Notes under the pieces: model-generated
What the model saw: the letters and a program-made list of their open reading frames with translations, nothing else
Database searches by the model: none
Told to the model about the DNA's origin: nothing
Part shown: positions 28,617 through 61,760 of the stretch, one piece after another
How the letters are laid out: every line of letters starts with the position of its first letter
Numbering within the stretch: position 1 is the stretch's first letter
From: Fodinibius roseus
Lineage (GTDB): Bacteria; Bacteroidota; Rhodothermia; Balneolales; Balneolaceae
Assembly (NCBI RefSeq): GCF_900129315.1
Contig: NZ_FQUS01000008.1
Coordinates: forward strand, 124,001 to 188,000
Direction: 5' to 3'
Length of the DNA: 64,000 nt
Translations under genes and position numbers: made by a program

Positions 28617-28787
28617 GGAAAAAGGGCTAAACTTTGTTCTGTGTATTATTGATTATATGATTTTAAGTTGCTAAAAATAGGGAATTAGCCAGAGAGTTGT
28701 GAGTTTTTTCTATATCCCAATTGTCACCGGAAAATTTATTCCTGTGCCGGGGTAAGGCAACCGGGGTCAACGTTCGCTGTTATTCAT

Positions 28788-28929
28788 AGAGGGCTTTGCA
28801 AAACCGGTCTTTTCCCCAATGTCGGCGTTATCGGTCGGTTGAAATCCTCACATATGGGCAATACGCTGCGATTCCAACCTCCCTCTGGCCTTGACCTTGA
28901 ACAAAATTTCTGGTTTTTCAAAGGCCTCT
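28788..28929 (-). repeat. 142-bp dispersed repeat, copy 3 (subfamily B)
   Basis: The ends are AGAGGGCTTTGCAAAACC on the left and, read from the right, AGAGGCCTTTGAAAAACC, giving an inverted repeat of about 18 bp with two mismatches. The trinucleotide CAT flanks both sides (28785-28787 and 28930-28932). The core GCTGCGATTCCAACC and ATCGGTCGGTTGAAATCCTC matches copy 1 in reverse. It lies between lysS and the phosphopantetheinyl transferase gene. Confidence 0.85.
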
Positions 28930-29176
28930 CATATCCTGCTTATTTTGCGTATGGAGATGCTATGGGGGCCATGCTACAGGCCAATGCCCTGTAAGAATAT
29001 CAGGCAAAAAGTTGTGAGAGATGGGAGAAAGCGACCTGAATTTTATCTCATCGAATAAAGGCAATAATTTTGTAGTTTTGAAAACACAGAGGCCACAAAT
29101 TTTGCAAAGTTTCCAATAATTAGCTGTATTGGTGGAATTAAAAAAGAAAAGCTTTTTGAGTTCAGACCACCTTCAT

Positions 29177-29809
29177 ATGAACGATATTCTTACAGATTTA
29201 GCCGATTCCCTGCCGTTTAAGAGTATCTTTGCCCTGCAAGAGATTGAGCGGCTTACGCCGGCGTTGTTGGACCAGCTGGGTGAGCAGGAACGGCGGGAAC
29301 TGGAGTCATTTCAACACGAAAAGCGCAGGCGGGAGTACGCTTCATCCCGGAGGCTGCTCAGGCAGTTGGCCGGGGAGTGGGGGGTGACAGGCGAAGGATT
29401 TTTAGTCTGTAAAAATGAATTGGGCAACCCTTTTGCGGAAACATCTTCAACCCGGTTCGAAGTAAGCATCGCCCATACCGACCGGGTGGTATTCGGGGGA
29501 CTCAGTTCGAGCGAGCCTATCGGTATTGATGTGGAACCGCTGAACCGGAAGGTTTCGGACCGGGTACGCTCACGGATGATGCACCCTGTCGAACGGCAAA
29601 ACGGGCTGGATATTCCGACCATCCGCCTGTGGACGGTCAAGGAGGCGTATATCAAGCTTCGGGGACAAGGGTTGCGGTTAAATATGAACGAGGTATGCGT
29701 GCAGCGGAAGGGAGAGGATTTTGTCGTCGCCCCGGATCGTGACAAAACGGCCAAAATTTGTAGTTTTGCATACCGGGGACACTGGCTGGCCGTAGCATTT
29801 TATCTGTAA
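29177..29809 (+). CDS. 4'-phosphopantetheinyl transferase family protein
   Basis: The ATG at 29177 gives 210 residues; a TTG at 29129 would add 16. The signature blocks are IGIDVEPLNRKV (with the metal-binding Asp and Glu) and LWTVKEAYIKLRGQGLRLN, the WxxKEAxxK motif of Sfp-type enzymes. SIAHTDRVVFGGLS supplies the conserved SxSH-like segment, here SIAHT. It transfers phosphopantetheine from CoA to carrier proteins. No polyketide or peptide synthetase is nearby, so it may serve fatty acid or another carrier protein. Confidence 0.85.
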   Translation: MNDILTDLADSLPFKSIFALQEIERLTPALLDQLGEQERRELESFQHEKRRREYASSRRLLRQLAGEWGVTGEGFLVCKNELGNPFAETSSTRFEVSIAHTDRVVFGGLSSSEPIGIDVEPLNRKVSDRVRSRMMHPVERQNGLDIPTIRLWTVKEAYIKLRGQGLRLNMNEVCVQRKGEDFVVAPDRDKTAKICSFAYRGHWLAVAFYL

Positions 29810-29960
29810 CTATTATAGACATCTCCTGTGAATACCATCTCTTACATCCTGCGGGAAACGGAAAGGGAAAAATTGAAAGCCCGGAAGCTTTATCGGAGGC
29901 CACGAGCCAAGATCTCCGGCTGTGCTTTGCGGGGGAAGGATTCAACAAAGATAATATAGC

Positions 29961-30857
29961 ATGAACATATCTGATATCGAAATAACTGTTATTGGCCTGG
30001 GGGCGCTGGGGACTGCATTGACGGAGGCCTTTGCGAGTCATAACATCAAGATTAAGAGCGTATTTAACCGCAATGAACAGCGGGCCGGGACCGTTGCCGT
30101 AACGCAAAAAGTAGCGACCGCCTCCTCGTTTCCGTCCGAATTGGACCAGCTGGGGGAGGTGGTATTCCTGACGGTGACGGATGCGGCGATTGCGGGCGTT
30201 GCGGCCCGGCTGTCCGCACTCGGCGGCGATTTATCGGGCAAAACGTTTGTCCACTGCTCGGGAAATGAATCCGCTGCTCTGTTGGACCCTCTAAAGGAGA
30301 AAGGAGCCCGGACTACCTCTATGCATCCCCTGCAAACCTTTAATGCCCGTTCGGGCGCCTCGGATTTTAAGGACATCTATTTCAGCCTGCAGGGGGATGC
30401 TGCGGTCTTCCCCCTGCTCGAGCGCATGGCTCATCTGCTGGGAGCCGAAACGCTGTCCGTTACGGAGGAACAGAAATCCCACCTGCATGTTGCGGCCGTG
30501 TTAGCTTCCAACTACCTGATAACCCTGCTGGATGCCGCAACCGATACCGGCGGACTGAGCGGACTCGATAAGAAGCAGGTCCGCGAGGCCCTTTACCCGC
30601 TGATCGGCACAACATTGAAGAACGTTCAGTCCACCTCCTTCAAGGAAGCCATCAGCGGACCGATTGTCCGCGGTGACGTGGAAACGGTCACCCGACATCT
30701 CCAGCTGTTGCGTAATCAACAGGGGCTGCTGGGGTTGTACACCGTTCTGGGGCAACAGACTGCGGACAGGGCAGAAGAGGCGGGCAGGCTGGACCGGGCG
30801 TCTGCAGATGAGCTTCGCAGTCATTTTACGGAGACAGAGGGGAGGGATGACGGCTGA
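29961..30857 (+). CDS. Rossmann-like and DUF2520 domain oxidoreductase
   Basis: The 298-residue protein starts with a Rossmann fold (ITVIGLGALGTALTEAFAS, about residues 8-26, with the GxGxxG-like GLGALG). It continues with VVFLTVTDAAIAGVA and the DUF2520 block around HPLQTF and HLHVAAVLASNYLITLLDAA. Such proteins resemble NADP-dependent beta-hydroxyacid or ketopantoate reductases, but no reaction is established. Its stop lies two bases from the stop of the minus-strand enzyme gene. Confidence 0.85.
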   Translation: MNISDIEITVIGLGALGTALTEAFASHNIKIKSVFNRNEQRAGTVAVTQKVATASSFPSELDQLGEVVFLTVTDAAIAGVAARLSALGGDLSGKTFVHCSGNESAALLDPLKEKGARTTSMHPLQTFNARSGASDFKDIYFSLQGDAAVFPLLERMAHLLGAETLSVTEEQKSHLHVAAVLASNYLITLLDAATDTGGLSGLDKKQVREALYPLIGTTLKNVQSTSFKEAISGPIVRGDVETVTRHLQLLRNQQGLLGLYTVLGQQTADRAEEAGRLDRASADELRSHFTETEGRDDG

Positions 30858-30859
30858 CC

Positions 30860-31735
30860 TTACTTCACCTTTATTTCCGCAAAAACCGGGAGATGATCCG
30901 AGGGGTAATAGCCATTCCGGAAAGAAGTAATGGTAGCGTGCTTTAGGACTTCAACCGCGTTATTGGTAAAGACGTAATCGATGCGCCGTCCCCGTGAGGG
31001 AATCTGCACCTCAAATCCCCCGCCGGTAAATGCCGGTCCCACATGCGGGAGATCGGAGGTATGGATGGCATCCGTCATGAAAGAGGACGTCAGTACTTGA
31101 TAGGGCTTGCTGTCATCGACGATATTGAAATCCCCCATCAGCACGACGGGACGATCACCCGCTGTTTTTTTGATGGTATCGAGGATGATTCGGGCGCTTT
31201 CGGTGCGGGCCGTTTCCCCCACGTGATCAAAATGCGTGTTAAAAACGAAAATACGGTCCCCGCTCGATTTAACCTCAAATTCTCCCCACGTCAGGACCCG
31301 GGGCAGGGCGGCATCCCAGTCTTTGCTGGGCTGGCCAGGTGTTTTGGAAAGCCAGATTGTACTGTCGCTACCCGCAACCAGTTCCACCTTCCGGGAGTCA
31401 TAGAAAAGAGCGGAAAACTCACCGCCTTTTTTGCCGTCTTTCCGTCCTTTGCCGATCCACCGGTAGTCGGTGAGCGCACGGTCAATATCCTCAAGCTGGT
31501 GGAAGAGCACTTCCTGGGTTCCCAGGAAGGCTGGTTCGTACAATTGCATGAGATTCGTTACGCGCTCCTTGCGGTTGTCCCACGTATTGGGAGCATCATC
31601 GGGGTTGTCATACCGGATGTTGTAGGTCATCACGCCCAGCGGCTCCTGCTGCGCCTGGGCCCGCAGCTGGGGGGTGATGACTGCAACCACTATTACGGAG
31701 GACAAAAGAAGAAGGATGGGAAATAACGTTTTCAT
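30860..31735 (-). CDS. Secreted endonuclease/exonuclease/phosphatase family protein
   Basis: The 291-residue protein has a signal peptide (about 1-27, LFPILLLLSSVIVVAVITPQ then RAQA). The fold's motifs are VMTYNIRYDNP (metal Asn), GTQEVLFHQLEDI (metal Glu), FNTHFDHVGETAR (His/Asp), VLMGDFNIVDDS (Asp, Asn) and YPSDHLPVFAEI (terminal Asp-His). This subgroup in Bacteroidota is secreted and cleaves phosphodiesters or phosphates of unknown identity. It is convergent with the DUF2520 gene, with a 2-bp gap. Confidence 0.9.
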   Translation of the reverse strand: MKTLFPILLLLSSVIVVAVITPQLRAQAQQEPLGVMTYNIRYDNPDDAPNTWDNRKERVTNLMQLYEPAFLGTQEVLFHQLEDIDRALTDYRWIGKGRKDGKKGGEFSALFYDSRKVELVAGSDSTIWLSKTPGQPSKDWDAALPRVLTWGEFEVKSSGDRIFVFNTHFDHVGETARTESARIILDTIKKTAGDRPVVLMGDFNIVDDSKPYQVLTSSFMTDAIHTSDLPHVGPAFTGGGFEVQIPSRGRRIDYVFTNNAVEVLKHATITSFRNGYYPSDHLPVFAEIKVK

Positions 31736-31992
31736 AGGAGTGAATCAGTATATTGATAATTGTGTTTTTATTTTCTGTTCAGCCAGGATTTCTCACCGGT
31801 AAAGTGGTCTGGAACCATGGCACCTCACACAAGTATGCGAGAGGGTACCGTTAAGTGAGCGTATTGGGATTCAACGTGCCTACAGGAGCATTTCGCTGAT
31901 GTCACAGCAATCGTAATGTTCGTTGTTATTCTAAAGAATCGCAACTCGGAGTTATTAACAATTTATTATCATTATTTCACAGAATCATTAGG

Positions 31993-32031
31993 AGAGGCCT
32001 TTGAAAAATCAGGGGTTATGCAAAGGCCTCT
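31993..32031. repeat. 39-bp palindromic minimal derivative of the dispersed repeat
   Basis: The two ends of the family, AGAGGCCTTTG and CAAAGGCCTCT, are present as a perfect 11-bp inverted repeat with only 17 bases between. The central 100 bp of the element are missing. It lies 3' of the symporter gene and could fold as a hairpin that stops transcription. The internal bases GAAAAATCAGGGGTTATG keep parts of both inner ends. Confidence 0.7.
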
Positions 32032-32136
32032 GGGATTCTCCGAAATAGAAACATCAACCATCTATAGCTGAGTGATTGTTACAGAAAAACTTGCATGCCG
32101 TTATGTAAGAACACTATCGCTTGGTGGTCATATCAA

Positions 32137-33723
32137 TTACCAAAAGGAAATAACAAGTATCAAGGTAGCCGTACAAACAAAGAAAGCAAATCCTTTGGAA
32201 GAAAGATACCAGGGTCCGCTGTACTCATCAGCAGGTTGATCGTGGTCCGCCATCTCCCGGATGGTTCCCAGCGCACCCTCTTTTTCACGCCCCGCCCGGG
32301 TACGGGGTTGCAGCGCACTGGTAACAACCATGACCAGGCAGCTGAAGGTAAAGATCATCGTGGCGGAATAAAGGTAGTGCACGGTTCCCCAGATCGGATA
32401 AACATAATTATTGATGACCATCAGGAAAGCGAAAAAAGTGCCGAGCAGAAGGGTGTAGAAGGCCCCTTCTGCAGAAGCCCGCCTCCACAGCAGTCCCCCC
32501 AAAAAACAGGTGACCACGGGGGGCGTAAGATAGGCGAGTACCGCCTGCAGGTATTCCCAAAGCGTCGGGAACTGCTCAATAAAGGGAGCCCACAGTGAGG
32601 CGATGGTTACAAAAAGGATAATGAATATCTTGCCCACCAGGATAAAATGGCGTTCACTTTTAGCCGGAACTATATTTTTATAGATATCGAGGGTGGCGAT
32701 ACTCCCGGAGGCCGTAAGAGCAGAGTCTATGCTTGACATCAGGGCGGCAATGAACCCTGTCATGACGATTCCCAGGAGTCCCGCCGGCAGGAGATCGTAA
32801 AGCATCGTCGGAAAGATGAAGTTGGCATTTTCCAGATCCGGGTACAGCAGGAGTCCCATGGTGCCCGGGAGGACCAGCAGAAACAGGATCGGCAGCTTCA
32901 GAAAACCGGCGAAAATAGCTCCTTTTTTTCCATCCTCGATCGATTTCGCCCCCAGGATTCGCTGGACCATGTGCTGGTTGGAGCACATAAAGTAAAAACC
33001 GAGAATAGGGATACTGACAAACAGGGTAGGCCAGGGGGTCAGCTCGTCGTCGAGCGGCTGGATCAGGCTCATAAAATTATCCGGAAGCGCCGCCGTGATT
33101 TCCGTCCAGCTCCCCAGCTTCATGAAAAGCATAACAGAAATAATGCCGGTCCCCACAGCCAGCAGGATGCCCTGCACGGAGTCGGTGAGCACGACGGCCT
33201 TCAATCCCCCCACGACGGTATACAGTCCCGCTATCAAAGCCATGACTCCTACAAAAACAAACAGGTCGATATCCGGGAAGAGCCCCCTCAGAAACAGGCT
33301 GCCTGCATACAGGGCGCCGGCAATATCGATGAGTACGTTGATGAGGATCGAAATGACGGAAAAATAGAAGCGGGACCGGTGATCGAAACGCCGCTCCAGG
33401 AACTCGGGCATGGTTGTCAGGCGGTTCCGGATATAATAGGGGGCGATGAACAGGGCAAAGATCACCAGCATGATGGCCCCGGTCCACTCGTAATTAAAGA
33501 CGGATATGCCCGTTTTATACCCGCTTCCGCCGAGCCCGATAATGCTGCTGGTAGAGATATTCGTCGCAAAAAGAGAGAGCCCGATAACGGGCCAGCTCAG
33601 GGAGCGATTGGCCAGGAAGTAATCGTCTGCGGTGCTATAAGACGTGCGGGCGCTGATACCGCGCCAGCAGATAAAAAGTATATAGGCAGTAATGATTAGC
33701 AGATCAATTCCGGCCAAAGGCAT
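32137..33723 (-). CDS. Sodium/solute symporter, sugar (SGLT)-like SSS family
   Basis: The 528-residue protein has about fourteen membrane helices. The N-terminus has DYFLANRSLSWPVIGLSLFATNIS and GYKTGISVFNYEW, as in SGLT-like sugar symporters. PVVTCFLGGLLWRRASAEGAF is the late conserved helix. It takes up a sugar or similar solute with sodium. Lying next to the LacI regulator and the first SusC/SusD locus, it may carry the degradation products of that polysaccharide; this is inference. The gene may extend its transcript into the minimal repeat. Confidence 0.92.
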   Translation of the reverse strand: MPLAGIDLLIITAYILFICWRGISARTSYSTADDYFLANRSLSWPVIGLSLFATNISTSSIIGLGGSGYKTGISVFNYEWTGAIMLVIFALFIAPYYIRNRLTTMPEFLERRFDHRSRFYFSVISILINVLIDIAGALYAGSLFLRGLFPDIDLFVFVGVMALIAGLYTVVGGLKAVVLTDSVQGILLAVGTGIISVMLFMKLGSWTEITAALPDNFMSLIQPLDDELTPWPTLFVSIPILGFYFMCSNQHMVQRILGAKSIEDGKKGAIFAGFLKLPILFLLVLPGTMGLLLYPDLENANFIFPTMLYDLLPAGLLGIVMTGFIAALMSSIDSALTASGSIATLDIYKNIVPAKSERHFILVGKIFIILFVTIASLWAPFIEQFPTLWEYLQAVLAYLTPPVVTCFLGGLLWRRASAEGAFYTLLLGTFFAFLMVINNYVYPIWGTVHYLYSATMIFTFSCLVMVVTSALQPRTRAGREKEGALGTIREMADHDQPADEYSGPWYLSSKGFAFFVCTATLILVISFW

Positions 33724-33900
33724 ACCCGCATGTGTGTGGATTCAGGGGTCATAAGAAAACGGGTAAGATAGCTTTTAATGCATAGTTGTGAAAATGGATA
33801 TTGAAAAAGCGGGAAATCTGTTTGTTCTCTTCTCTCACATACCGGCCGTTGCCGGGAGCCCATTTATTTGCAGGCGATCATACTACTTATCCTCTATTAT

Positions 33901-34041
33901 TGAGGGCTTTGCAAAACCAGGAATTTTGATCAATATCAACCCCTGACAAGTTCAAAACCGCAGCATATGATGTATATGTGAGGATTTTGAATGAGCAAAA
34001 ATGCAGAGATTGGCCGAAAGGACGGTTTTGCAAAGCCCTCT
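33901..34041 (+). repeat. 141-bp dispersed repeat, copy 5 (subfamily A, best inverted repeats)
   Basis: The left end GAGGGCTTTGCAAAACC is matched perfectly over 17 bp by the right end read in reverse. The trinucleotide TAT flanks both sides (33898-33900 and 34042-34044). The middle reads GATCAATATCAACCCCTGA, then CGCAGCATATGATGTATATG and TGAGGATTTTGAATGAGC. A one-base loss relative to copy 11 breaks the conserved reading frame. It sits between the symporter and the first LacI gene. Confidence 0.9.
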
Positions 34042-34119
34042 TATTATTGGTGAAGGTATTATTGATGATAGGAAAATATCTGGGGATCTGAATAATATAT
34101 TTATTCATCCACCCTGGGT

Positions 34120-35121
34120 TTATGAGGACTGGCGGTGGCGCAGGGAGACCGAAACAAAGCTCAGCATATTGTTATTCTGAGCGGGATTTTCCACCAGTTC
34201 CCGTAATAGCTTCATCGTGGTCATGCCCAGGGCCTCGTAATCCGTCTTAATGGAGGATATGGTCGGCTGGTTGTGACGGCAAACCGGTAAATCATCATAG
34301 CCGATTATGGCTACATTGTCGGGAAATTGTATGCCTTCCTGTTTGGCAGATTCCATGAATCCATTAGCCATATCGTCATTACCGGCAAAAATAGCGCGGG
34401 GTTTTTGGTTCAGCTTTTTATACTCCTCATAAGCCCGGGCACCCGATTCAAACGTAAAGTCACCTTCATGAACCCAGCGGAGATCCAGGTGATTGTGCTG
34501 GTGGATGTAATCTTTAAACCCGTTGCTCCGGTAGCGTGCCTCCGCCCGTTCAAAAGGTCCCTGTATAAGTCCCAGGTCGCTGTACGACTGATCCTCAAGA
34601 TGTCTGGCAGCAAGATAGCCCCCGCTGTACCCATCAAAGGTCACCGTGGGGAACACCGGGTTTTCTATAAGAGCATTTGAAATGATAGGTAATCCGCTGG
34701 GAATATTGTTTGAAAGCTCTTCATACTCACTGCGGGTGTATTCCGGGATATAGAGAATGGCGGCATCGTAATAGTGAAGCGAAATTTCTTTCAGCAGCTT
34801 GTGAAGCTCTTCTTCCGGATCAACAAGACCGATAAGAGAAAGCCTGATATTGTTCCTTTTGGAGGCCTGATTGAGTCCGTCAAAAAAGGAGACATAGAAT
34901 TCCCCCTCCTTAAAATCACTTGCGATCAGTGCTACATTCAGAAATTTCCCGGAAGAATCACTGTTCTGCTGTCCGGGGGACAGGTATCCCAGCCGCCGCG
35001 CACTTTCCATGACAATGTCCCGGGTCCGGGCACTGATTTTGGGGGACCCGTTAAGGACCCGCGAAACGGTTGATTCCGAGAAGCCCGAATCCTTTGCAAT
35101 GTCTTTCAGTGTTACTTTCAT
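34120..35121 (-). CDS. LacI family transcriptional regulator (paralogue 1)
   Basis: The 333-residue protein has the LacI helix-turn-helix MKVTLKDIAKDSGFSESTVSRVLNG (residues 1-25) and hinge helix, then a periplasmic-binding-protein-like sensor domain with PRAIFAGNDDMANGF and VAIIGYDDLPVCRHNQPTIS. It shares start and end motifs with the two LacI proteins at 44677 and 45799. It is divergent from SusC, with a 353-bp spacer holding repeated TTGCAT boxes, so it is a good candidate to control the PUL. The inducer is probably a sugar but unknown. Confidence 0.93.
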   Translation of the reverse strand: MKVTLKDIAKDSGFSESTVSRVLNGSPKISARTRDIVMESARRLGYLSPGQQNSDSSGKFLNVALIASDFKEGEFYVSFFDGLNQASKRNNIRLSLIGLVDPEEELHKLLKEISLHYYDAAILYIPEYTRSEYEELSNNIPSGLPIISNALIENPVFPTVTFDGYSGGYLAARHLEDQSYSDLGLIQGPFERAEARYRSNGFKDYIHQHNHLDLRWVHEGDFTFESGARAYEEYKKLNQKPRAIFAGNDDMANGFMESAKQEGIQFPDNVAIIGYDDLPVCRHNQPTISSIKTDYEALGMTTMKLLRELVENPAQNNNMLSFVSVSLRHRQSS

Positions 35122-35252
35122 AAGAAATTATAAGAACCTTTGACTGTACCCCTGTGGCTGAATGTTATTTCGCTACTATGCTATCAAATTGGGTCCACAC
35201 CTGCAAATGGAATAATGTGGAAGTATAAACGACCAACTGACGTACCGTATTC

Positions 35253-35393
35253 TTGCATAAAATTGCATTAAATGAAAGTAGTTAACATTAATTTTCTTTT
35301 ATTTCAAGCTTAAATGGAGGTAAATAGTAAAATAAAAGCAATAAAATGCAAGAAATAATATTTATTAATATAAAATTGCATAATAAATTGCAT
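35253..35393. promoter_or_regulatory. Cluster of TTGCAT boxes upstream of SusC
   Basis: TTGCAT occurs at 35253-35258, 35263-35268, 35377-35382 and 35388-35393, and its complement ATGCAA at 35346-35351. The two pairs are spaced 10 and 11 bp, about one helical turn. They lie between divergent LacI and SusC genes. An operator role is inferred from layout; the LacI family usually prefers palindromes with a central CG, so the binding protein is uncertain. Confidence 0.4.
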
Positions 35394-35474
35394 CATTCCC
35401 ATTTAATTTTTAGTCTTACAACAGTTCCTGGTTGTTCCAGCCATAAAATTATTATCAACGACGACGGAAAAATT

Positions 35475-38400
35475 ATGAGATACCAAAGCCTATCTATTGT
35501 TGCCCTGACCTTCATCTGCTCCCTGTTTCTGTTCCCTGAGGAAAGCCTTTCCCAGGCCCACAGCGTAGAGGGAACTGTGAGTGATCAGAATGGAGAGCCG
35601 CTGCCTGGCGTTAATATCCAGATAAAGGGCACCACGCGAGGTACATCCACCGGTGCGGAGGGCAGCTATAAGCTGACCACGGAAAGTGAAACGGATACCC
35701 TGGTGTTTTCTTTTATCGGTTTTGAAACGCAGGAAATACCGATACAGGGTCGCAACCAAATCGATGTGGCCATGACTCCGGCAACGCTCGAATCGGGAGA
35801 GGAACTGGTGGTCATTGGCTATGGGACACAGCAGCGAAGCGACCTGACCGGGTCGGTCTCGAGCGTCAGGGGCGACGCCCTTACGGCTCCCGCCGTTTCT
35901 AATCCCGCCCAGGCACTGCAGGGTACGGCTTCGGGCGTACAGGTCGTATCCTCCGGGGAACCGGGATCGTCCCCCTCCATAAATATCAGAGGGATTGGTA
36001 CGACGGGCGACAGTTCCCCCTTGTTCGTCGTTGACGGGGTATTTGTCAATGATATTTCGCATTTAAACAATAACGACATTGAATCCATGGAGGTGTTGAA
36101 AGACGCTTCCGCAACGGCGATCTACGGTTCAAGGGGAGCCAATGGGGTAGTATTGATTACGACCAAACAGGGGACCAGTGAGGAACCGGTTTTTAATTTT
36201 ACCATGTCTGAAGGGGTGGAAGTGCCTACTTCCTATAGTATGGTCAATGCCCGGCAATATGCCACGCTTATTAATGAGGGGCTCGAAAACATTGGAGAGG
36301 AATCGAGGTATGATCTCAGTCAGATCGACAGCTCCACCGACTGGTTTGACGAGGTAATGGATCCCGCTTCCGTGCGGAAGTACAACATTTCATTCAGCCA
36401 GGGAACAGACCGAAACAGCTATTACGTCAGTTTAGGATATGACAACCAAAACGGGACTGTTGATAAAAGTGGCTACAAAAGGTATTCGGTTCGCGTGAAT
36501 AACCGGTATCATCTGAGCGATAATGTTACGATCGGCCATAACCTGTCAGGCAACTGGTCGGATAAAGACAATCGATTGGGAGAGGCCTTCGGCTGGACGT
36601 ATAGAATTCCTTCTACCGTACCGGTACGGAATCCCGATGGCTCGTATGCGTCTACCGGCATCGGTTCTAACGGGAATGTTATCGCAGCTCTTGACTATCA
36701 TCATAACTTTACAAAATCCAGGGCTTTGGTGGGAAATGCGTTTGCTGAAGTCAGTTTTCTGGAAAATTTTCAGTTTAAGTCCAGCCTGGGCGTTGATATG
36801 AGTCACGCCGAGAATACGAACTTTGATCCCGTATTTTTTGTGGACGAAAACCAGAGAAACCAGGAAAGCAGCCTCTCAAAAAGGTGGGCCAAGACCCAGA
36901 ATTGGCTGTGGGAGAATACTCTTACCTATAACCAGACGGTAGATATGCACAAGATTGACGCGGTGGTCGGGATTACGGCCCAGGAAAACAATTTTGAGCA
37001 GTTGGGGGGAGAGCGTAATAATATTTTCTCCGATGACAGAGATCTCTGGTATCTGGATGCGGGAGCGACCGAGGGACTTGGGAATTCAAATATTGCCAGC
37101 TCCAGCAGTATTGTTTCTTACCTGGGACGGGTTAATTATACCCTGATGGATAGGTATCTGTTTACGGGGACTCTGCGCATTGACGGTTCTTCAAAATTTC
37201 CGGAAGATGAGCGGTGGGGAACCTTCCCGTCCTTTGCCCTCGGCTGGCGGATTATCGAAGAGCCTTTTATGGATGAAGCGGGCTGGCTCTCCGATCTTAA
37301 AATCCGGGGCAGTTGGGGACAAATTGGCAACCAAAAGATCGGGGATTACCGGTACTACGCTACCGCAGCTACCGGTATCGGCTACGCCGGCATCTGGGGG
37401 AATAGTATCGACCGGGGAGCAACGATTACGAACCTGGTCAATCAGAATGTGACATGGGAAAAGAGTGAACAAACAGACATCGGATTGCAGTTCGCACTTT
37501 TTGAAGACAAAATTGAGGGAGAAGTGGACTGGTATAAACGTACCACCAAGGATATGTTGGTGGAGGTGGGAGTGCCGGGCTCCGTTGGGTTGAATGCCAC
37601 CGAGGGAAATGTCGGGTCCGTAGAGAATTCAGGTATTGAGTTTAGCCTCGACCTTAGCGGATCACAAAGTGACTTTTATTATAACATCGGATTAAGAGCA
37701 TCTACAATAAATAATAAGGTGGTGGATCTCGGTACCAGGGATGAACTGATCGGCGGAAATATCGGAGCGGGTAAAAACGTGAGTCGCGCCCGCGTAGGTC
37801 AGCCAATCGGATTCTTCTACGGCTATAAGTCCCTCGGCCCGTTTGATACGCAACAGGAGATCGACAATGCCCCCACCCAGTCTAATGTTGCCCCCGGGGA
37901 CCTGAGAATGGCCGACATCAACGGCGATGGTACGATCAGCAGTGAGGACCGGACGAAGATCGGTTCTCCGATTCCGGATTATACGGGAGGCCTGAATATA
38001 ACCGTGGGCTACAAAGCATTCGAGTTATCGGTTGATATGTACGGTTCCTTTGGAAGCGAGATTTACGACGGTAACAATAATGTGCGGTATTCCGGCGACG
38101 ACAACTTTTCGAAAGAGTGGCTGGATCGCTGGACGGGTCCCGGTACAAGTGATGAGGTCCCGCGAATTACTTTCGGCGGGGATTGGAACTATGAAGTTTC
38201 TTCACGGTGGGTACACGACGGATCCTTTGTTAAAATCCAAAATGTGCGATTGCAGTATACCCTCCCGGCATCCACGCTGGAGGCCTTGCCGGTATCATCC
38301 GCAAATGTGTATATCAGCGGTAATAATCTCCATTACTTTACAAAGTATGAAGGGCTTACTCCGGAAATCCCGGGTAGTGTCAGGTCGCCCGGCAGCGTTG

Positions 38401-38513
38401 ATGATCCGAACAATGCCAATGTGAACAACAATAGTGCCTTAAATGCAGGCATTGATAACAACATCTACCCGGTGTCGAGTTTTTTCCAGCTTGGAACTTC
38501 CATAACTTTCTAA
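35475..38513 (+). CDS. SusC/RagA family TonB-linked outer membrane protein (PUL 1)
   Basis: From the ATG at 35475 the protein has 1012 residues, with a signal peptide (RYQSLSIVALTFICSLFLF). An open frame to 35346 adds non-family residues. A CarboxypepD-regulatory-like domain follows (VEGTVSDQNGEPLPGVNIQI). The plug contains VVIGYGTQQRSDLTGSVSS and LFVVDGVFVND, and the beta barrel ends in the aromatic SITF. It imports oligosaccharides across the outer membrane with TonB energy and pairs with the SusD encoded 18 bp downstream. It is the first gene of the PUL 1 run. Confidence 0.95.
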   Translation: MRYQSLSIVALTFICSLFLFPEESLSQAHSVEGTVSDQNGEPLPGVNIQIKGTTRGTSTGAEGSYKLTTESETDTLVFSFIGFETQEIPIQGRNQIDVAMTPATLESGEELVVIGYGTQQRSDLTGSVSSVRGDALTAPAVSNPAQALQGTASGVQVVSSGEPGSSPSINIRGIGTTGDSSPLFVVDGVFVNDISHLNNNDIESMEVLKDASATAIYGSRGANGVVLITTKQGTSEEPVFNFTMSEGVEVPTSYSMVNARQYATLINEGLENIGEESRYDLSQIDSSTDWFDEVMDPASVRKYNISFSQGTDRNSYYVSLGYDNQNGTVDKSGYKRYSVRVNNRYHLSDNVTIGHNLSGNWSDKDNRLGEAFGWTYRIPSTVPVRNPDGSYASTGIGSNGNVIAALDYHHNFTKSRALVGNAFAEVSFLENFQFKSSLGVDMSHAENTNFDPVFFVDENQRNQESSLSKRWAKTQNWLWENTLTYNQTVDMHKIDAVVGITAQENNFEQLGGERNNIFSDDRDLWYLDAGATEGLGNSNIASSSSIVSYLGRVNYTLMDRYLFTGTLRIDGSSKFPEDERWGTFPSFALGWRIIEEPFMDEAGWLSDLKIRGSWGQIGNQKIGDYRYYATAATGIGYAGIWGNSIDRGATITNLVNQNVTWEKSEQTDIGLQFALFEDKIEGEVDWYKRTTKDMLVEVGVPGSVGLNATEGNVGSVENSGIEFSLDLSGSQSDFYYNIGLRASTINNKVVDLGTRDELIGGNIGAGKNVSRARVGQPIGFFYGYKSLGPFDTQQEIDNAPTQSNVAPGDLRMADINGDGTISSEDRTKIGSPIPDYTGGLNITVGYKAFELSVDMYGSFGSEIYDGNNNVRYSGDDNFSKEWLDRWTGPGTSDEVPRITFGGDWNYEVSSRWVHDGSFVKIQNVRLQYTLPASTLEALPVSSANVYISGNNLHYFTKYEGLTPEIPGSVRSPGSVDDPNNANVNNNSALNAGIDNNIYPVSSFFQLGTSITF

Positions 38514-38531
38514 ATTTAAGATTGAGCAGCC

Positions 38532-40040
38532 ATGAAGAAATTCATAAACGTTACCTTGTTAAGCATCTTTGTACTTGCAGGGACTGCCTGCGACGACGGG
38601 GTTGTGAATTTAAACAAAGAGCCTTTGGGAGAACCCTCCAGTTCTACGCTGTATACTACAGAGGAGGGGATTCATAAACTTCTCAACGGGGCCTATGCCC
38701 AGACCAGGAGTTTTGGGTTAAGCGGATTTGGCCGGTTTGTCGCTAAAGAAGTGGGATCTGATGATACGAATCCCGGCAGTACCCCCGCAGATGGCAGTGT
38801 GCCCCGGATGGAACAAGTCAATAACTTTACGTACCTGACCAGTCAGGGTGATTTGGGTTCTTATTATGACAGTAATTACACGTTGATTGCACGCGCCAAT
38901 ATGGTCATCAACAATGCCCCGGATGTTGAGATGGATGGCGGACTCCAGTCACGATATATCGGGGAGGCTAAGTTTTTAAGAGCGGTTGCCTACTTTAATC
39001 TGGTGAGAGGATGGGGCGGGGTACCCCTCTATGAGGAAGTACCCGGAGACCCGGAAGAAGCGGCACAGGTAAAGCCGAGAGCATCGGAAGAGGAGGTTTA
39101 CCAGTTAATTGTAACCGACCTGGAGAGCGCGGTCGAGGATCTGCCACTTAAAAGTGAATATGCTTCTTCGGAACGGGGAAGAGCGACAAAGGGAGCGGCC
39201 AGGACCATGCTTGCCCAGGTATATCTTTTCCGGCAGGATTATGAAAACGCGCTGAGCTATGCCATGGATGTAATTGATTCCGGTGAATATAATTTGCTGG
39301 ACACTTATGACCAGAACTGGAGCGTTGAGCACCAAAATGGTGCGGAGTCTATTTTTGAAGTCCAGTTTATAACACGAGATGAACAGGATATATCAAACGA
39401 ATGGAACAAATGGCAGGGAGTCAGAGGGAATATAGGATGGGGCTTCTTTTCTCCCTCCGAAGATCTGGCGAATGCCTATGAAGATGGCGACCCAAGAAGA
39501 GATTACACCATATTTTTCGAAGGAGAAGCCTGGCCCGGAACACCGGATGAGGTTCCGGAATTTGCCGAGGGCGCCGATCCGCGGGCGAATCAAAAAACGC
39601 TGCTTCCCAAACCGTGGCCCGTCGGCTACCCGTCAAATTCACCGGTCAATATGGTGGTTATGCGTTATGCCGATGTGCTGCTCATGGCTGCAGAAGCTCA
39701 TAATGAGTTGGGTAATACGGGAGAGGCTTTAATGTACCTTGAAATGATACGAGCCCGTGCAAGAGAAGGCGAGCCGTCGGTATTACCGGAGATTACGACG
39801 ACCAGCCGAGAAGAGCTGCGTCATGAAATATGGCAGGAACGCCGGTATGAGCTGGCCCTGGAAGGCTACCGTTATTATGATATCATGCGCTATAACAAGG
39901 TAGAGCCGGGGTATGCCAAGGAATTATTTGATGCCCTGGGGAAAACCGATTTTGATCCCAATAAGCATACACTGTTTCCTATTCCCCAAAGTGAAATCGA
40001 CTTTTCAGGGGGACAGTTGGAACAGAATCCGGGGTGGTAG
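38532..40040 (+). CDS. RagB/SusD family nutrient uptake lipoprotein (PUL 1)
   Basis: The 502-residue protein has a lipoprotein signal (MKKFINVTLLSIFVLAGTAC). The SusD fold shows LNGAYAQTRSF, YIGEAKFLRAVAYFNLVRGWGGVPL and RGRATKGAARTMLAQVYLF. The C-terminal block is RYADVLLMAAEAHNELG, ELRHEIWQERRYELALEGYRYYD and FPIPQSEIDFSGG. It captures the polysaccharide fragment at the cell surface and closes the SusC channel. It lies 18 bp from SusC, as is usual. Confidence 0.95.
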   Translation: MKKFINVTLLSIFVLAGTACDDGVVNLNKEPLGEPSSSTLYTTEEGIHKLLNGAYAQTRSFGLSGFGRFVAKEVGSDDTNPGSTPADGSVPRMEQVNNFTYLTSQGDLGSYYDSNYTLIARANMVINNAPDVEMDGGLQSRYIGEAKFLRAVAYFNLVRGWGGVPLYEEVPGDPEEAAQVKPRASEEEVYQLIVTDLESAVEDLPLKSEYASSERGRATKGAARTMLAQVYLFRQDYENALSYAMDVIDSGEYNLLDTYDQNWSVEHQNGAESIFEVQFITRDEQDISNEWNKWQGVRGNIGWGFFSPSEDLANAYEDGDPRRDYTIFFEGEAWPGTPDEVPEFAEGADPRANQKTLLPKPWPVGYPSNSPVNMVVMRYADVLLMAAEAHNELGNTGEALMYLEMIRARAREGEPSVLPEITTTSREELRHEIWQERRYELALEGYRYYDIMRYNKVEPGYAKELFDALGKTDFDPNKHTLFPIPQSEIDFSGGQLEQNPGW

Positions 40041-40155
40041 GAGAAAGATGGAGCTCTGCATTTATATTTTTTGCATGTTCTGATCCCAATGCCGGCAGGA
40101 GATGGGATAATTGGGGCAATACCGAATATTATGAATTAAAATCCCGGTTACTGGT

Positions 40156-41748: not shown

Positions 41749-41789
41749 ATATTATTCGTACATCCGTTAATTCCAACTTAACCTGAGTC

Positions 41790-43169: not shown

Positions 43170-43382
43170 TGGGATGGAGGACAGACGAGAATTACCGGCT
43201 AAATCGCCTCCTTCAGAGGTGAATAGAAAGAGTTAGAACGGTCTGTTTCACAAAATTTCCTTTGCGCTTTTTTATGAGAGCCGGCAAGGAAACATATGAA
43301 GTGGTTCTGTATATCGTCTCTGTATATGGTCGACGAAAGATAACATGGTCAATAAAGGTTAAGATAAAATAGTGAGAAAGAG

Positions 43383-46803: not shown

Positions 46804-46877
46804 GCCTAAGTTGTTTTTTCAGAGTTTTCAATCATCTTGATAAGACGACCGTGATTAGCCAAACGTTATTTGTACAA

Positions 46878-46898: not shown

Positions 46899-47012
46899 CC
46901 CGAATATAAGAAATAGTTTATATTTATTTTAATGCCCGTCAGATCTTTGTAGTACTATTCTACGATTGAAAAAAGACATTATTATAAAAAAAAGAAAGAA
47001 AAATTTATAAAA

Positions 47013-47050
47013 CTGACCTTAAACAAAATCCCTGGTTTTTCGAAGTCTTT
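47013..47050 (-). repeat. Fragment of the dispersed repeat, copy 8 (end only)
   Basis: TGACCTTAAACAAAATCC followed by CTGGTTTTTCGAAGTCTTT matches the right end of copy 3 (subfamily B). The rest of the element is not present, so this is a truncated copy about 150 bp left of the full-length copy 6. Confidence 0.6.
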
Positions 47051-47203
47051 GAAAGGAATACGACTGGAATTCTTTTTTCCGGGAAGGGATGGCGGATGAA
47101 AAGGGATTGTAGCATTTCTGTGATATTTTACTTTATTTGAGAATATCTGTCGCTTCATTAAATTTTTTTTAACAAAAGATCAGGCTGTGGGACTATATAT
47201 TTT

Positions 47204-47347
47204 AGAAGGTTTTGATAAACCAGAACTTTTAGTCAATATCAACCCCTGAGTGCATTTATAACCACAGCATATAATAACAGTATATGAGGATGCTGAATGC
47301 GCGAAAATACAGCAATTGACAAAAAGAACGGTTTTGTAAAGGATTCT
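47204..47347 (+). repeat. 144-bp dispersed repeat, copy 6 (subfamily A)
   Basis: It begins AGAAGGTTTTGATAAACC and ends CGGTTTTGTAAAGGATTCT, degraded forms of the family ends. The centre has AGTCAATATCAACCCCTGAG and CACAGCATATAATAACAGTA. It is 3 bp longer than the standard 141 bp. It lies about 95 bp before the second ECF sigma gene and may separate that locus from the LacI genes. Confidence 0.8.
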
Positions 47348-47442
47348 TTAATAAAAGATATTCCTGGATGATGTGAGGATGGATTAGTGCTGGGTTACAA
47401 TGGATGACAGCTGATGAATAATATCAATATTGACCGGAATTT

Positions 47443-48072: not shown

Positions 48073-48077
48073 GCATG

Positions 48078-48186
48078 GGTAAAACCGTTCTTTTGCCCTT
48101 TGACGATGTTATCGGTCGGTTGAAAACGATCCATATGGACTATATGCTTCGATTTTCTGCCTTTTGATCTTGATTTCAGTAGAATA
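48078..48186 (-). repeat. Diverged dispersed repeat, copy 7 (subfamily B)
   Basis: GTAAAACCGTTCTTTTGCC and TTATCGGTCGGTTGAAAACG align with copy 3. The later TATGCTTCGATTTTCTGCC and GATCTTGATTTCAGTAGAAT follow the same order. The outer inverted repeats are lost. It begins just after the sigma gene stop at 48072. Confidence 0.55.
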
Positions 48187-48524
48187 CCGGACTTTTTATC
48201 CCCCCGTTGTAATACAAAACCGGTGGCCTGGTGGAACATCAAGAAGAAATGCATTGCTTTTATCCCTTCTTTACGGTCACATTCACATAGGTTCTTTATT
48301 CGTTTTTTTCAGGTATGATTCTTCTCTGCTTCTCCTCAGCCTGGTGAATTCGTGTAGTGTACCAGTGTACGATGTCCTTGATACGTACGGTTCAAAGGTG
48401 GAATATTTCCGGACGTATTTAAAAAAAATTGAACCGGGTAAAAAAAAGCTGCAATTTTTTTGATTACAATTCCATTTCGCACCCGTCTATTGAATGAAAC
48501 AGAAAAAGAATCGACGGGAAACCA
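48187..48524. other. Intergenic region before fecR, no gene seen
   Basis: No convincing gene was found in these 338 bp. An open frame at 48164-48463 has no recognisable domain and overlaps the repeat. The part next to the fecR start is AT-rich and may contain a sigma-dependent promoter. Confidence 0.4.
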
Positions 48525-49604: not shown

Positions 49605-49644
49605 AAACGTAATAAAAGCTAACTATAAATCTAAAACTGCTGTT

Positions 49645-52989: not shown

Positions 52990-53031
52990 AATGCTTCCAG
53001 TCATAAATAAAATTTATAGAGCTATACAGAT

Positions 53032-54549: not shown

Positions 54550-54562
54550 AATTGGTTACGGT

Positions 54563-55783
54563 ATGTTATTATACAGGATGAACAACCCTTGCAGGTCTCT
54601 CATGATATCATATGCGGCGGTTCTTTTCGTGGCGGTGATGTTTTGCCTGCCGGGTTGCGGCGTGGAAACTGCGAAAAATCCGAGACCGGAAGTAGACCTG
54701 GTCCAAATTGAGCGGGAACGGGTGCTTTCGGCGGCCGACAGCATCCTCGGCGCCCCGGTGGTGACGGTCACCGATACGGTATCTCCCCGCAGCGCCGGGG
54801 GACGCCATGACTATTATTCCGAAGGGGATTACTGGTGGCCGGACCCGGACAACCCGGAGGGGCCGTACATCCGCCGGGACGGGAAAAGCAACCCGGATAA
54901 CTTTCTGGCCCACCGCCGGGCCATGCGCCGGCTCAGTCAGATGGTGCCGGCGCTGGTTGCGGCCTACAAAGTGACCGGGGAGCAACAATACGGCGAGGAA
55001 GCAACCAGGCACCTGCAGGCCTGGTTTATTGATGAAGAGACCAAAATGAACCCCAACCTGCAGTATTCCCAGGCGATCGAGGGTCGAAATGAAGGCCGGA
55101 GTATCGGGATTATCGACACCATCCATTTGGTGGAGGTCGCCCAGGCGATCAAGGTACTGGGGGAGGCGGGCGCCCTGCCGGAGGAGACGGCGGCGGGACT
55201 CCACGAGTGGTTCTCGGCGTACCTGGAGTGGCTGACGACCAGCGATTTCGGACTGGAGGAGAAGACCCACGGGAATAACCACAGCACTGCCTGGGCCCTG
55301 CAGGCCAGCGCCTTCGCGCGGATGGTGGGGGACGAGACGGTCCTGGAGGAGTGCCGCAGGCTGTATAAAGAGACCTTGCTGCCGGACCAGATGGCCCGGG
55401 ACGGGAGCTTTCCGGATGAGCTGGAACGGACCAAGCCGTACGGCTATTCGTTGTTTAACCTGGATGTGATGACTTCGCTGGTCCACATTATCTCCAGACC
55501 CGGCCATGAGTTGTGGATCTATGAGACCCCGGACGGGAAATCCATCGATGACGCCCTGGCGTTTATGTACCCGTATATCAAAGACAAGAGCAGCTGGCCT
55601 TACGGGGAGGATGTGATGTATTACGAGCAGTGGCCGGTGCGGCACCCGGCGCTGCTGTTTGGGGGACTGGCCCTGGATAAGCCCGAATATATTGAGCTGT
55701 GGAAAACCCTCGATCCCGATCCCTCCACCCCCGAGGTCGTACGGAACTACCCGATCCGGCAGCCTCTTTTGTGGGTCGACTGA
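54563..55783 (+). CDS. Alginate lyase family protein, PL38-like
   Basis: The 406-residue protein has a lipoprotein-type signal ending at Cys32 (FCLPGC). Starts further in, at 54578 (Met6) or 54602 (Met14), are also possible. The alginate-lyase domain (Pfam 05426 type) shows HDYYSEGDYWWPDPDNP, LVAAYKVTGEQQYGEEATRH, EGRNEGRSIGIIDT, EKTHGNNHSTAWALQ (catalytic Asn-His region at 238-244) and FPDELERTKPYGYSLFNLD. PL38-type lyases cut uronic acid polymers by beta-elimination. It follows SusD closely and is the only polysaccharide-degrading enzyme in PUL 2. Confidence 0.85.
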   Translation: MLLYRMNNPCRSLMISYAAVLFVAVMFCLPGCGVETAKNPRPEVDLVQIERERVLSAADSILGAPVVTVTDTVSPRSAGGRHDYYSEGDYWWPDPDNPEGPYIRRDGKSNPDNFLAHRRAMRRLSQMVPALVAAYKVTGEQQYGEEATRHLQAWFIDEETKMNPNLQYSQAIEGRNEGRSIGIIDTIHLVEVAQAIKVLGEAGALPEETAAGLHEWFSAYLEWLTTSDFGLEEKTHGNNHSTAWALQASAFARMVGDETVLEECRRLYKETLLPDQMARDGSFPDELERTKPYGYSLFNLDVMTSLVHIISRPGHELWIYETPDGKSIDDALAFMYPYIKDKSSWPYGEDVMYYEQWPVRHPALLFGGLALDKPEYIELWKTLDPDPSTPEVVRNYPIRQPLLWVD

Positions 55784-56258
55784 GCAGGATTGTAACAAAG
55801 AATTGGATTCTTGTGGTGCTGGAATTCCGTTTTTAGTCATTGCAGCCGGAAGCCGCGCCCGTGCAAGTTTAGAGGATGGGATCAGATGCTTATGCAGGAT
55901 TAGATGATAGGATTCCTTTCTTATATCTTATTTTATATAATGCGTTCTGCGATTGGTTTCTAACATCCGTTTAGCGCCTATGATATGAAAGCGTTGTTTG
56001 GATGGGAGATATGAAAAGAATCTAACGTCCTCCGGTGCCCTGTTGGGTCAGCTTTCCTTTTTGCCACATGAATGGGCAAGTTTTTTCTTAGCTAATTTTA
56101 CCAAAACAAGTATATGCAGCGAACATAACGGGTTATAGTTGTATATGTAAGATGTTATTTCAGGGGCGGGTGGAGCAGAAATAACTTTTTGAATTATTGA
56201 ACAGGAGAAATTACCTTGGAATTCGAGATTCCTTTAACAAATAGCCGGGGATAATGAT
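55784..56258. other. Intergenic region before repeat copy 9, no gene seen
   Basis: No gene was found between the lyase stop and the repeat (475 bp). The stretch is AT-rich and may hold a promoter for the dehydrogenase gene. An open frame at 55659-55907 is a shadow. Confidence 0.4.
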
Positions 56259-56399
56259 AGAGACTTTTGCAAAACCGTTCTTATGGCCAATCTCTGTATT
56301 TTCGCGCATTCAACATTCTCACATATGTCTTATATGCCGTAGTTTTAAATGCGCTCAGGGGTTGATATTGATCAAAATTCCCGGTTTTGCAAAGTCTCT
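56259..56399 (-). repeat. 141-bp dispersed repeat, copy 9 (subfamily A)
   Basis: The ends AGAGACTTTTGCAAAACCG and, from the right, AGAGACTTTGCAAAACCGG are inverted. The trinucleotide GAT flanks both sides (56256-56258 and 56400-56402). Read on the minus strand, a reading frame similar to copy 11 is kept for 36 codons (LCKTGNFDQYQPLS...) before a stop. It lies 36 bp before the dehydrogenase gene. Confidence 0.9.
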
Positions 56400-56434
56400 G
56401 ATACGAAATAAGACAATACAACGGTCGGGGTCCC

Positions 56435-59356: not shown

Positions 59357-59391
59357 TCGCCCATTATTTATTATACTGTTTACTATACTGT

Positions 59392-59532
59392 AGCAAGCTT
59401 TGAAAAACCTGGGGTTTGTTCAATGCCAGTCCCTGAGCGATTTCAAAACCGTAGTGTGTAGACTCTACACGAGAATTTTAAAATCTCAAAGATGTAAGGG
59501 TTGGGCAAAACAACGGTTTTGCAAAGCTCGCA
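59392..59532 (+). repeat. 141-bp dispersed repeat, copy 10 (subfamily A)
   Basis: It begins AGCAAGCTTTGAAAAACC and ends GGTTTTGCAAAGCTCGCA. CTGT lies directly on each side (59388-59391 and 59533-59536). The inner part keeps the family's order (CCCTGAGCGATTTCAAAACC) and an open frame throughout, but the core GCAGCATAT is changed to GTAGTGTGT. It sits between the dehydrogenase and the VCBS gene. Confidence 0.8.
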
Positions 59533-59565
59533 CTGTAATGAAATGGATAAAAAAACAAGTCCCCC

Positions 59566-60828
59566 ATGAAAAAACAGCATACGATGAAAACGTTACGTGC
59601 CATGAAGACCTTATCACCCGGACCGGGGACAATCCCCCTGCTCGGGGCGGCCCTGCTGCTGTGTCTGGCCTGCCGGCCTGTATGGGGACAGGGGTCCGGG
59701 CACACCTTTGAGAAGATCCAGCTCTCCTCCACCTTTTATGCGGAGGGTGCGGCCATCGGTGATCTGAACGGTGATGGCCATCCGGATGTGGTGGCCGGTC
59801 CGTACTGGTACGAAGGACCGGACTTCGACGACAAGCATGCCTTTTATGAGCCCCGGATGTTTGATCCCCGAAACTATTCCGACAATTTTATAGCCGGTGT
59901 GGATGATGTAAACGGGGACGGGAGAAACGACATCCTGGTGGTGGGTTTCCCCGGGGAGTCCGCCCGCTGGTATGAAAACCCGGGCGAGTCCGGCGGCTAC
60001 TGGGACCCTCACCTGATCCATGAGTCCGTGGATAACGAGTCACCGCAGTTTTATGATCTGAACGGGGACGGGGCCCTGGAGCTGGTCTTCCACACCGGGG
60101 GACGGCTGGGATATGCCGCTCGGGATGAGGGGGATCCGACCCGCCCGTGGTCGTTCACGGCGGTTTCCGGCCGGCACGACTGGGGTAAATTCACCCATGG
60201 ACTGGGGATCGGCGATATTGACGGCGATGGGCATGAGGATATCCTCAAAAAGGAGGGCTGGTGGGAGAACCCCGGAACAGATGAGATGAGTGACCAATGG
60301 AAATACCACGAAGCCGCGTTTGCCGGTCCCGGGGGCGCACAGATGTATGCCTATGATGTGGACGGGAACGGGCTTAACGATGTGATCACCAGCCTCGATG
60401 CCCACGGGTGGGGGCTGGCCTGGTACCGGCAACACCGGGAGGGGGATGAGATCCGGTTTGAACAACGCCTGATTATGGGCGCCTTGCTGGGTGACAATCC
60501 CTATGGCGTGCGTTTCTCACAGCCGCACGCCCTGGAGCTGGCGGATATGGACCAGGACGGAGTGAAAGATATCGTATCCGGGAAACGATTCTGGGCCCAC
60601 GGTCCGCAAGGCGGACTCGAGCCTAATGCGCCCGCTGTGGTATACTGGTTTAACCTGCAGCGGGGCAGCCCCGGAAGCGCGGGATTTGTCCCCTACCTCG
60701 TGGATGACAACTCGGGCGTCGGCGTGCAGTTTGACACCGGCGATGTGACCGGCAACGGCTATCCCGATATTGTGACCTCCAACAAGAACGGGACGTTTGT
60801 CTTTTTGAATCATCCACCGGAACACTAA
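59566..60828 (+). CDS. Secreted VCBS/FG-GAP repeat protein
   Basis: The 420-residue protein has a signal peptide (about 20-42, ending near LLCLACRPVWGQG; an internal ATG at 59584 or 59605 is also possible as start). At least five calcium-binding FG-GAP type repeats follow: IGDLNGDGHPDVVAG, VDDVNGDGRNDILVVG, FYDLNGDGALELVFH, IGDIDGDGHEDILKK, YDVDGNGLNDVITS, ADMDQDGVKDIVSG and VTGNGYPDIVTSN. Beta-propeller proteins of this type bind or process glycans at the surface. It sits downstream of the cupredoxin-dehydrogenase and is probably part of PUL 2. Its stop overlaps the stop of the opposite gene by two bases. Confidence 0.88.
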   Translation: MKKQHTMKTLRAMKTLSPGPGTIPLLGAALLLCLACRPVWGQGSGHTFEKIQLSSTFYAEGAAIGDLNGDGHPDVVAGPYWYEGPDFDDKHAFYEPRMFDPRNYSDNFIAGVDDVNGDGRNDILVVGFPGESARWYENPGESGGYWDPHLIHESVDNESPQFYDLNGDGALELVFHTGGRLGYAARDEGDPTRPWSFTAVSGRHDWGKFTHGLGIGDIDGDGHEDILKKEGWWENPGTDEMSDQWKYHEAAFAGPGGAQMYAYDVDGNGLNDVITSLDAHGWGLAWYRQHREGDEIRFEQRLIMGALLGDNPYGVRFSQPHALELADMDQDGVKDIVSGKRFWAHGPQGGLEPNAPAVVYWFNLQRGSPGSAGFVPYLVDDNSGVGVQFDTGDVTGNGYPDIVTSNKNGTFVFLNHPPEH

Positions 60829-61277
60829 TTATCTGGGCCGCCCAAATTCTCTATATCAGCTAAATCCTGGTAGCGACCAGTAGCTTTTTTATTAGTAATC
60901 AAATCCGATCGATGAATGAATTTAGCTGTACAGTTCTCTAATTCTACTTCGATTCGACGATAATAACAATCATCGAAATCAATCCCTTTTAAATCATTTA
61001 GCAGATCAATTCTGTTAGGTGGGACACCGAGCTGAACAACTTGATCGCTGTCTAAAAAGTCTTCTTTTTTTAGATCTAAACTTCCAAAGCCAAAGTCGTC
61101 AAGGGCTTTGAGAAGGCGTCCGGCATTTACGGGATCTCCCTTAATCCAAATATCAAGATCTTTGGTATAGCGAGGGTGACCATGGAAGGCTACAGCATAA
61201 CCTTCTACAATCAGGTACTGGACATTATTATCGTTTAACGACTGTATAAACTCTTTGAAATCGGGATTGAGAATCAT
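60825..61277 (-). CDS. Nucleotidyltransferase-fold protein (MNT/DUF6036-like)
   Basis: The 150-residue protein has the polymerase-beta-type fold with YLIVEGYAVAFHGHPRYTK and DLDIWI, the DxD metal-binding pair. The usual start of the motif is GGYAV; here the first Gly is replaced by Glu. C-terminal features are QLGVPPNRIDLLNDLKGIDFDD and RYQDLADIENL. Similar proteins are encoded next to a tiny partner and are sometimes parts of toxin-antitoxin pairs. The 59-residue gene at 61228-61407 overlaps its 5' end by 50 bp in another frame. It lies convergent to the VCBS gene. Confidence 0.85.
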   Translation of the reverse strand: MILNPDFKEFIQSLNDNNVQYLIVEGYAVAFHGHPRYTKDLDIWIKGDPVNAGRLLKALDDFGFGSLDLKKEDFLDSDQVVQLGVPPNRIDLLNDLKGIDFDDCYYRRIEVELENCTAKFIHRSDLITNKKATGRYQDLADIENLGGPDN

Positions 61278-61407
61278 ATTTCCATCTATGGTATTCTTTG
61301 CGAATTTCTTCGAGTGTTTTCAGTCGTTTTTCGTACGATTGTTTTTTCCAATATTCGAAATCATTACCGGTCTCTTTTACAGAGACTTTGTTGAACACTT
61401 TCTCCAT
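61228..61407 (-). CDS. Small protein encoded with the nucleotidyltransferase
   Basis: An ATG at 61407 opens a frame of 59 codons to a TAA at 61228-61230. The product is highly charged, with MEKVFNKVSVKETGNDFEYW at the start, then YEKRLKTLEEIRKEYHRWKY and SRFQRVYTVVKR at the end. This pattern, NDFEYW...R...LE.IR..Y..W...QPRFQRVY, is known from small genes placed directly before nucleotidyltransferases of this type. It overlaps the nucleotidyltransferase start (61277) by 50 bp in a different frame. It probably forms a two-gene operon with it; its function is not known. Confidence 0.75.
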   Translation of the reverse strand: MEKVFNKVSVKETGNDFEYWKKQSYEKRLKTLEEIRKEYHRWKYDSQSRFQRVYTVVKR

Positions 61408-61443
61408 GGCTGAGATAATTTATTTAGCCTGACTACTACTGTA

Positions 61444-61584
61444 AGAGAACTTTGCAAAACCGTCCTTTTGTCCATTCTCTGTATTTTCGCTCATTCAAAA
61501 TCCTCATATATGCCTTATATGTTGCGGTTTTGAAATCGCTCAGGCTTTGATATTGATCAAAATTCCTGGTTTTCAAAGCTCCCT
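61444..61584 (-). repeat. 141-bp dispersed repeat, copy 11 (subfamily A, full open frame)
   Basis: The left end is AGAGAACTTTGCAAAACCG and the right end, read inward, AGGGAGCTTTGAAAACCAGG. GTA flanks both sides (61441-61443 and 61585-61587), consistent with a target duplication. On the minus strand the whole element is one open frame (ALKTRNFDQYQSLSDFKTA, then TYKAYMRILNERKYREWTKG). Removing the element and one GTA restores a continuous sequence there. Confidence 0.9.
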
Positions 61585-61760
61585 GTAATTCTTTAATAGC
61601 TATGTGATCTAATTCTCTGACTCCCTGGATCGGAGATAATAAACAAAGTTTGTGGAGCATAATCGAATGAATACCTCGATGGCTCTTCCTAAAATATAAC
61701 GATTCATTTCTGAATTAACATATTGAAAAGGTACAGTAATTTCTTAATGGTTTGGCAACA

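Follow-up and report, generated by a model that had tools for sequence, protein, structure and literature searches.

Repeat copies and genes in the window

The window, the whole stretch of 64 kb that was analysed, corresponds to positions 124001-188000 on contig 13 of a 5.08-Mb draft genome of 64 contigs, referred to here as G000. The best protein match among named genomes, at 65% identity, is to a metagenome-derived Balneolaceae genome, and the host therefore most likely belongs to that family. The window contains nine copies of a short element, hereafter the MITE, and one 37-bp end-to-end derivative of it. Direct repeats flank five of the copies, at 28789-28928 (140 bp, minus strand; 28784-28933 including the duplications, TCATA on both sides), 33902-34040 (139 bp with perfect ends, plus strand; 33897-34045, TTATT), 56260-56398 (139 bp, minus strand; 56255-56403, TGATA), 59393-59531 (139 bp, plus strand; 59387-59537 including the flanking repeats, ACTGTA) and 61445-61583 (139 bp, minus strand; 61440-61588, TGTAA). 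The repeat ACTGTA at 59393-59531 can be taken either as 6 bp long or as a 5-bp repeat combined with a 1-bp shift of the right end, which then reads …GCTCGCA followed by CTGTA.

Older copies lie at 15584-15721 (plus strand, flanks TAACA/TACTA, with 3 of 5 positions in agreement), at about 15782-15920 (plus strand, profile match at 15787-15916) and at 47205-47346 (plus strand, flanks TTTTA/TTTAA, 4 of 5 in agreement), and a decayed copy with unreadable ends was matched by the profile at 48079-48190 (minus strand); where copies have decayed, their boundaries can be given only approximately. About 60 bp separate the copies at 15584-15721 and 15782-15920, which have the same orientation. The 37-bp sequence at 31994-32030 (plus strand) is a palindrome in which 3 bp separate the two 17-bp ends; it is flanked by TAGGA and TGGGA (4 of 5 in agreement) and resembles a minimal form derived from the MITE.

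Among the neighbouring genes, Pfam matches identify a sodium:solute symporter (32137-33723), a LacI-type regulator (34120-35121) and a SusC/SusD-like pair (35346-40040). In the segment 56435-60828, a gene for a DUF7133/HEAT protein precedes one for an FG-GAP repeat protein, and the two are adjacent in relatives too (L270, L271).

Structure and copy number of the element

The MITE is about 140 bp long, which is too short for a transposase gene, and carries none. Its ends, GAGGgCTTTGAAAAACC and GAgggCTTTGCAAAACC, form 17-bp inverted repeats with the consensus GAGGGCTTTG[A/C]AAAACC. A copy was counted as readable when both 17-bp ends were found with at most three mismatches per end, which was the case for 35 of 78 loci, and in these readable copies the ends are asymmetric, C predominating at one of them (31 of 35) and A at the other (29 of 35). 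Copies are largely self-complementary, the RNA fold z-scores of five window copies ranging from -2.2 to -6.6, the latter for the copy at 33902-34040.

The census by profile search covered 1.204 Mb, about a quarter of G000, and returned the 78 loci mentioned above; by extrapolation, the whole genome is estimated to hold about 330. A search of the entire genome with one MITE end, allowing up to two mismatches, gave 212 matches versus a single match for the reversed control. The 3508-bp contig C14 of G000 (L071), on which relaxase-like and replication-like open reading frames were recognised by eye, is possibly a small mobilisable plasmid.

Two longer copies, G000:C30:239491-239720 (230 bp) and G000:C28:296200-296510 (310 bp), have a different repeat, GGATTATTCAC...GAAATTTGGTCATGAACGAG, inserted near the central CATATG, possibly a member of another MITE family. 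They were considered as nests of the MITE within itself, an interpretation rejected on the grounds that the inserted repeat is a different one.

Length of the flanking duplication

A preliminary description of this DNA had reported CAT, TAT, GAT and GTA as perfect 3-bp repeats directly on both sides of four copies, and CTGT on both sides of the copy at 59393-59531. All five are found where they had been placed, but the lengths given were too short, each being the core of a longer repeat. In the element tips as drawn, the A that precedes GAG and the T that follows CTC had wrongly been counted inside the element; as the outer two bases of each 5-bp repeat were thereby read as element tips, the repeats were seen as 3 bp.

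With the edges set at GAG and CTC, perfect 5-mers flank 10 of the 35 readable copies, compared with a mean of 0.7 when the right flanks were shuffled, and 0 of 5000 rounds of shuffling reached 10. None of the 35 copies has a perfect 3-mer or a perfect 4-mer at these edges. Comparison of left positions -5 to -1 with right positions +1 to +5 across these copies gave an identity of 0.66-0.80 per position (mean 0.71); in the other registers tested, covering lengths of 2 to 11, mean identity was about 0.33, within a range of 0.29-0.41, so that 5 is the sole peak. The agreement between flanks is thus far above chance, as had been claimed, and the repeats are target-site duplications from transposition. 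Their match spans five positions, however, and the proposed length of 3 bp has to be abandoned, as has its use as a guide to the transposase family. It had further been stated that decayed copies show no repeat, to which the older copy at 47205-47346, with its TTTTA/TTTAA flanks, is a counter-example.

A transposase that duplicates 3 bp, acting on an element with the ends AGAG...CTCT and at a target that happens to be TNNNA, deserves separate consideration, since a 3-bp duplication inside fixed A…T tips lies on the same diagonal and the outer base pair therefore has to decide. GAG is preceded by A, and CTC followed by T, in 27 of 35 copies each, a pattern that fixed tips and a TNNNA target would explain equally well. 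Among the 16 cases with an outer base other than the usual A or T, however, the partner base across the element agrees 7 times, versus 1.8 expected (P=0.001). The relatives provide further cases. In a first set, 7 of 19 readable copies (20 rows in the table, with the row for the window's own 33902 copy left out) have perfect 5-bp repeats, including AATTA, GTTTA, TATTG and TAAGT with deviating outer bases; in relative G030, with copies 94-98% alike, perfect 5-bp repeats flank 5 of 7 (AATTA, TTCAC, TTCAA, TCTTA, ACTTA); and one copy in relative G040 is flanked by a CAATA repeat. The repeats of the young copies in relatives that read AATTA, ACTTA, CAATA, TTCAC, GTTTA, TATTG or TAAGT all count against 3 bp, as does an insertion sequence (IS) copy flanked by ATTAA. 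These covarying outer bases contradict fixed A/T tips, and we consider a 3-bp duplication highly improbable. The preferred target of the 5-bp duplication is, loosely, TNNNA.

Occurrence in related genomes and search for empty sites

When one window copy served as the query, MITE matches came, apart from those in G000, from 13 of 58 related genomes, distributed over four families of the order, and among 247 sampled genomes of the phylum matches were restricted to the order Balneolales. In the same-genus genome G001, the genes flanking the locus at 33902-34040 are adjacent (78% and 75% DNA identity), and the spacer between them, a few dozen bases long, is without the element, its divergence being too great for the scar to be located. 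The picture is similar at three other loci, beyond the window, with the element absent from G001 and spacers too diverged for a single 5-mer. As G001 is without any MITE match, this represents absence of the element there, not loss.

Searches with the joined flanks of all 78 loci revealed no paralogous empty site in the G000 sequence searched, and no clean empty site was found in the sister genomes of G030. For the gene beside the 56260 and 59393 copies, there was no close match within the same genus.

A candidate source of transposase

The corrected scar length of 5 bp implies that a different transposase family has to be looked for. Contigs C25, C34, C29 and C39 of G000 each stop 78 bp inside an identical element starting with GAAGGCTTTGCAAAACC; four contigs ending in an identical IS end indicate that the draft assembly is broken at a repeated IS. 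At C59:245-767, G000 contains an IS that has lost internal sequence but kept both ends and a 3' transposase fragment, and this fragment, used as a query, led to intact relatives within the order. Their transposases match NF033581 with 237-246 bits (cut-off 140) as well as the Pfam families PF01609 (DDE_Tnp_1) and PF05598 (DUF772), and the elements themselves, members of the IS5 family, are about 1.0-1.3 kb long and have the same 17-bp ends as the MITE.

Ten of these IS copies have both ends, and perfect 5-bp repeats flank four of them (ATTAA, TATTA, TTTTA, TTAAA), with a 6-bp repeat (GATATA) at one and no perfect repeat at the remaining 5 of 10. In nearly all, the end at the 5' side of the gene is marked by TTTGC and that at the 3' side by TTTGA, the exceptions at the 5' end being L248 with TTTGT and L251, L253 and L264 with TTTGA. 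The MITE retains this IS-type asymmetry, with C at one end and A at the other; no sequence common to the MITE and the IS was found beyond the 17-bp ends.

In the relatives, an IS5-type DDE transposase thus lies between MITE-like ends, and G000 has yielded remnants only. No intact transposase of this group was visible in G000, in which the candidate short contigs read as N, and a search of the genome with NF033581 returned only a frameshifted remnant, at C42. Common ends, a common asymmetry and a common 5-bp scar point to the IS5 group as the mover, and judged from these sequence features it is most likely the IS group of family NF033581 that mobilises the MITE.

One of the relatives' transposases was compared with InsH of Escherichia coli IS5, to which it is 30% identical over 315 residues. 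IS5 of E. coli generates a 4-bp (YTAR) duplication and has different ends. The 4-bp duplication that marks the IS5 subgroup sensu stricto is found in none of the ten IS copies with both ends, as opposed to 5 bp in four. Elements of the IS1031 group generate a 3-bp TNA duplication, a scar to which none of the 35 readable MITE copies conforms, perfect 3-mers at their edges numbering zero. Maley and Roberts are said to have reported, in 1994, a 5-bp duplication for IS1126 (ISPg1).

Proposed mode of spread

The repeats very probably represent a non-autonomous MITE of about 140 bp that is moved by an IS5-family transposase acting in trans, with duplication of 5 bp of target. Under this proposal, a related insertion sequence of about 1.3 kb would provide, in trans, the IS5-family DDE transposase that recognises the 17-bp inverted ends of an element without coding capacity. 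This enzyme would cut the two strands of AT-rich, loosely TNNNA targets at a distance of five bases and join them to the element, and repair of the gaps would leave the 5-bp direct repeats. Copies would survive mainly between genes. The sequences themselves show the element, its ends, the 5-bp scars in G000 and in relatives, and IS5-family elements in relatives with the same ends and scar length; the identity of the mover, the biochemical route and the recency of activity in G000 are inferred.

The placement of the copies was assessed on empty sites rebuilt in silico by removing the element and one 5-mer. Of the 78 sites, 11 lie within an open frame of 150 codons or more, versus 750 of 1000 random positions, and the copies are hence mostly located between genes. 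Placement of this kind and the self-complementarity of the copies, with their fold z-scores, would also suit a family of immobile structured RNAs or regulatory hairpins that was spread by recombination and flanked by chance repeats in AT-rich spacers. Such a family should not show flank agreement far above shuffles in one register alone, nor ends that match those of an IS, and an Rfam search with the MITE returned no matching family; we therefore give this account almost no weight. Retention of the IS5-type MITE as a transcriptional signal (a terminator or mRNA-stability hairpin) beside many genes would add to transposition rather than replace it. The capacity to form hairpins and the intergenic placement speak for such a role, but selection against gene disruption alone explains the placement, and the copies decay, which makes this addition rather unlikely.

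Comparison with known elements

IS5-linked MITEs are an established kind, exemplified by BrickBuilt, MITE464/PgRS and ATR (PMC4596501), and the MITE is a new family of this well-known kind. BrickBuilt and MITE464/PgRS of Porphyromonas gingivalis have the ends GAGACCTTTGCA(AAA) or near variants thereof, which match ISPg1/ISPg4 (PMC4596501). They are gene-less, intergenic and multi-copy, with IS5-family ends and without a transposase remnant (PMC4596501), all of which they share with the MITE. BrickBuilt differs in containing 23-nt tandem repeats, and the reported duplications of BrickBuilt/PgRS are irregular (CT, GAAA, AAAAA) (PMC4596501), in contrast to the regular 5-bp scar observed here; the comparison is one of ends. 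Among the insertion sequences, IS1126/ISPg1 of P. gingivalis, with the ends GAGACCATTGCA (PMC4596501), resembles the IS group in these ends and differs in its host.

For ATR, the AT-rich repeat of Neisseria meningitidis, PMC4596501 names ISNme1, of the IS5 family, as the proposed parent. The ATR ends given there, GAGACCTTTGCAAAA, are very near GAGGGCTTTGCAAAACC of the MITE, the comparison again being one of ends. ATR is described there with about 19 copies (PMC4596501), compared with the roughly 330 estimated for the MITE, and resides in a different host phylum.

A literature search, mostly of open-access papers, produced no paper on Balneolaceae insertion sequences and none on IS5-family MITEs with 5-bp scars. 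The MITE accordingly adds a high-copy family, present in multiple genomes, for a bacterial group in which this search found no published one. More tentatively, the IS5-type elements of the Balneolales might constitute a subgroup of their own, characterised by GAGGGCTTTG[A/C]AAAACC ends, asymmetric A/C end marks and a 5-bp TNNNA target, with MITEs derived from them in four or more families of the order, although we lean slightly against it. Since an IS group matches the MITE in its ends and scars, mobilisation of the MITE in trans can be tested directly.
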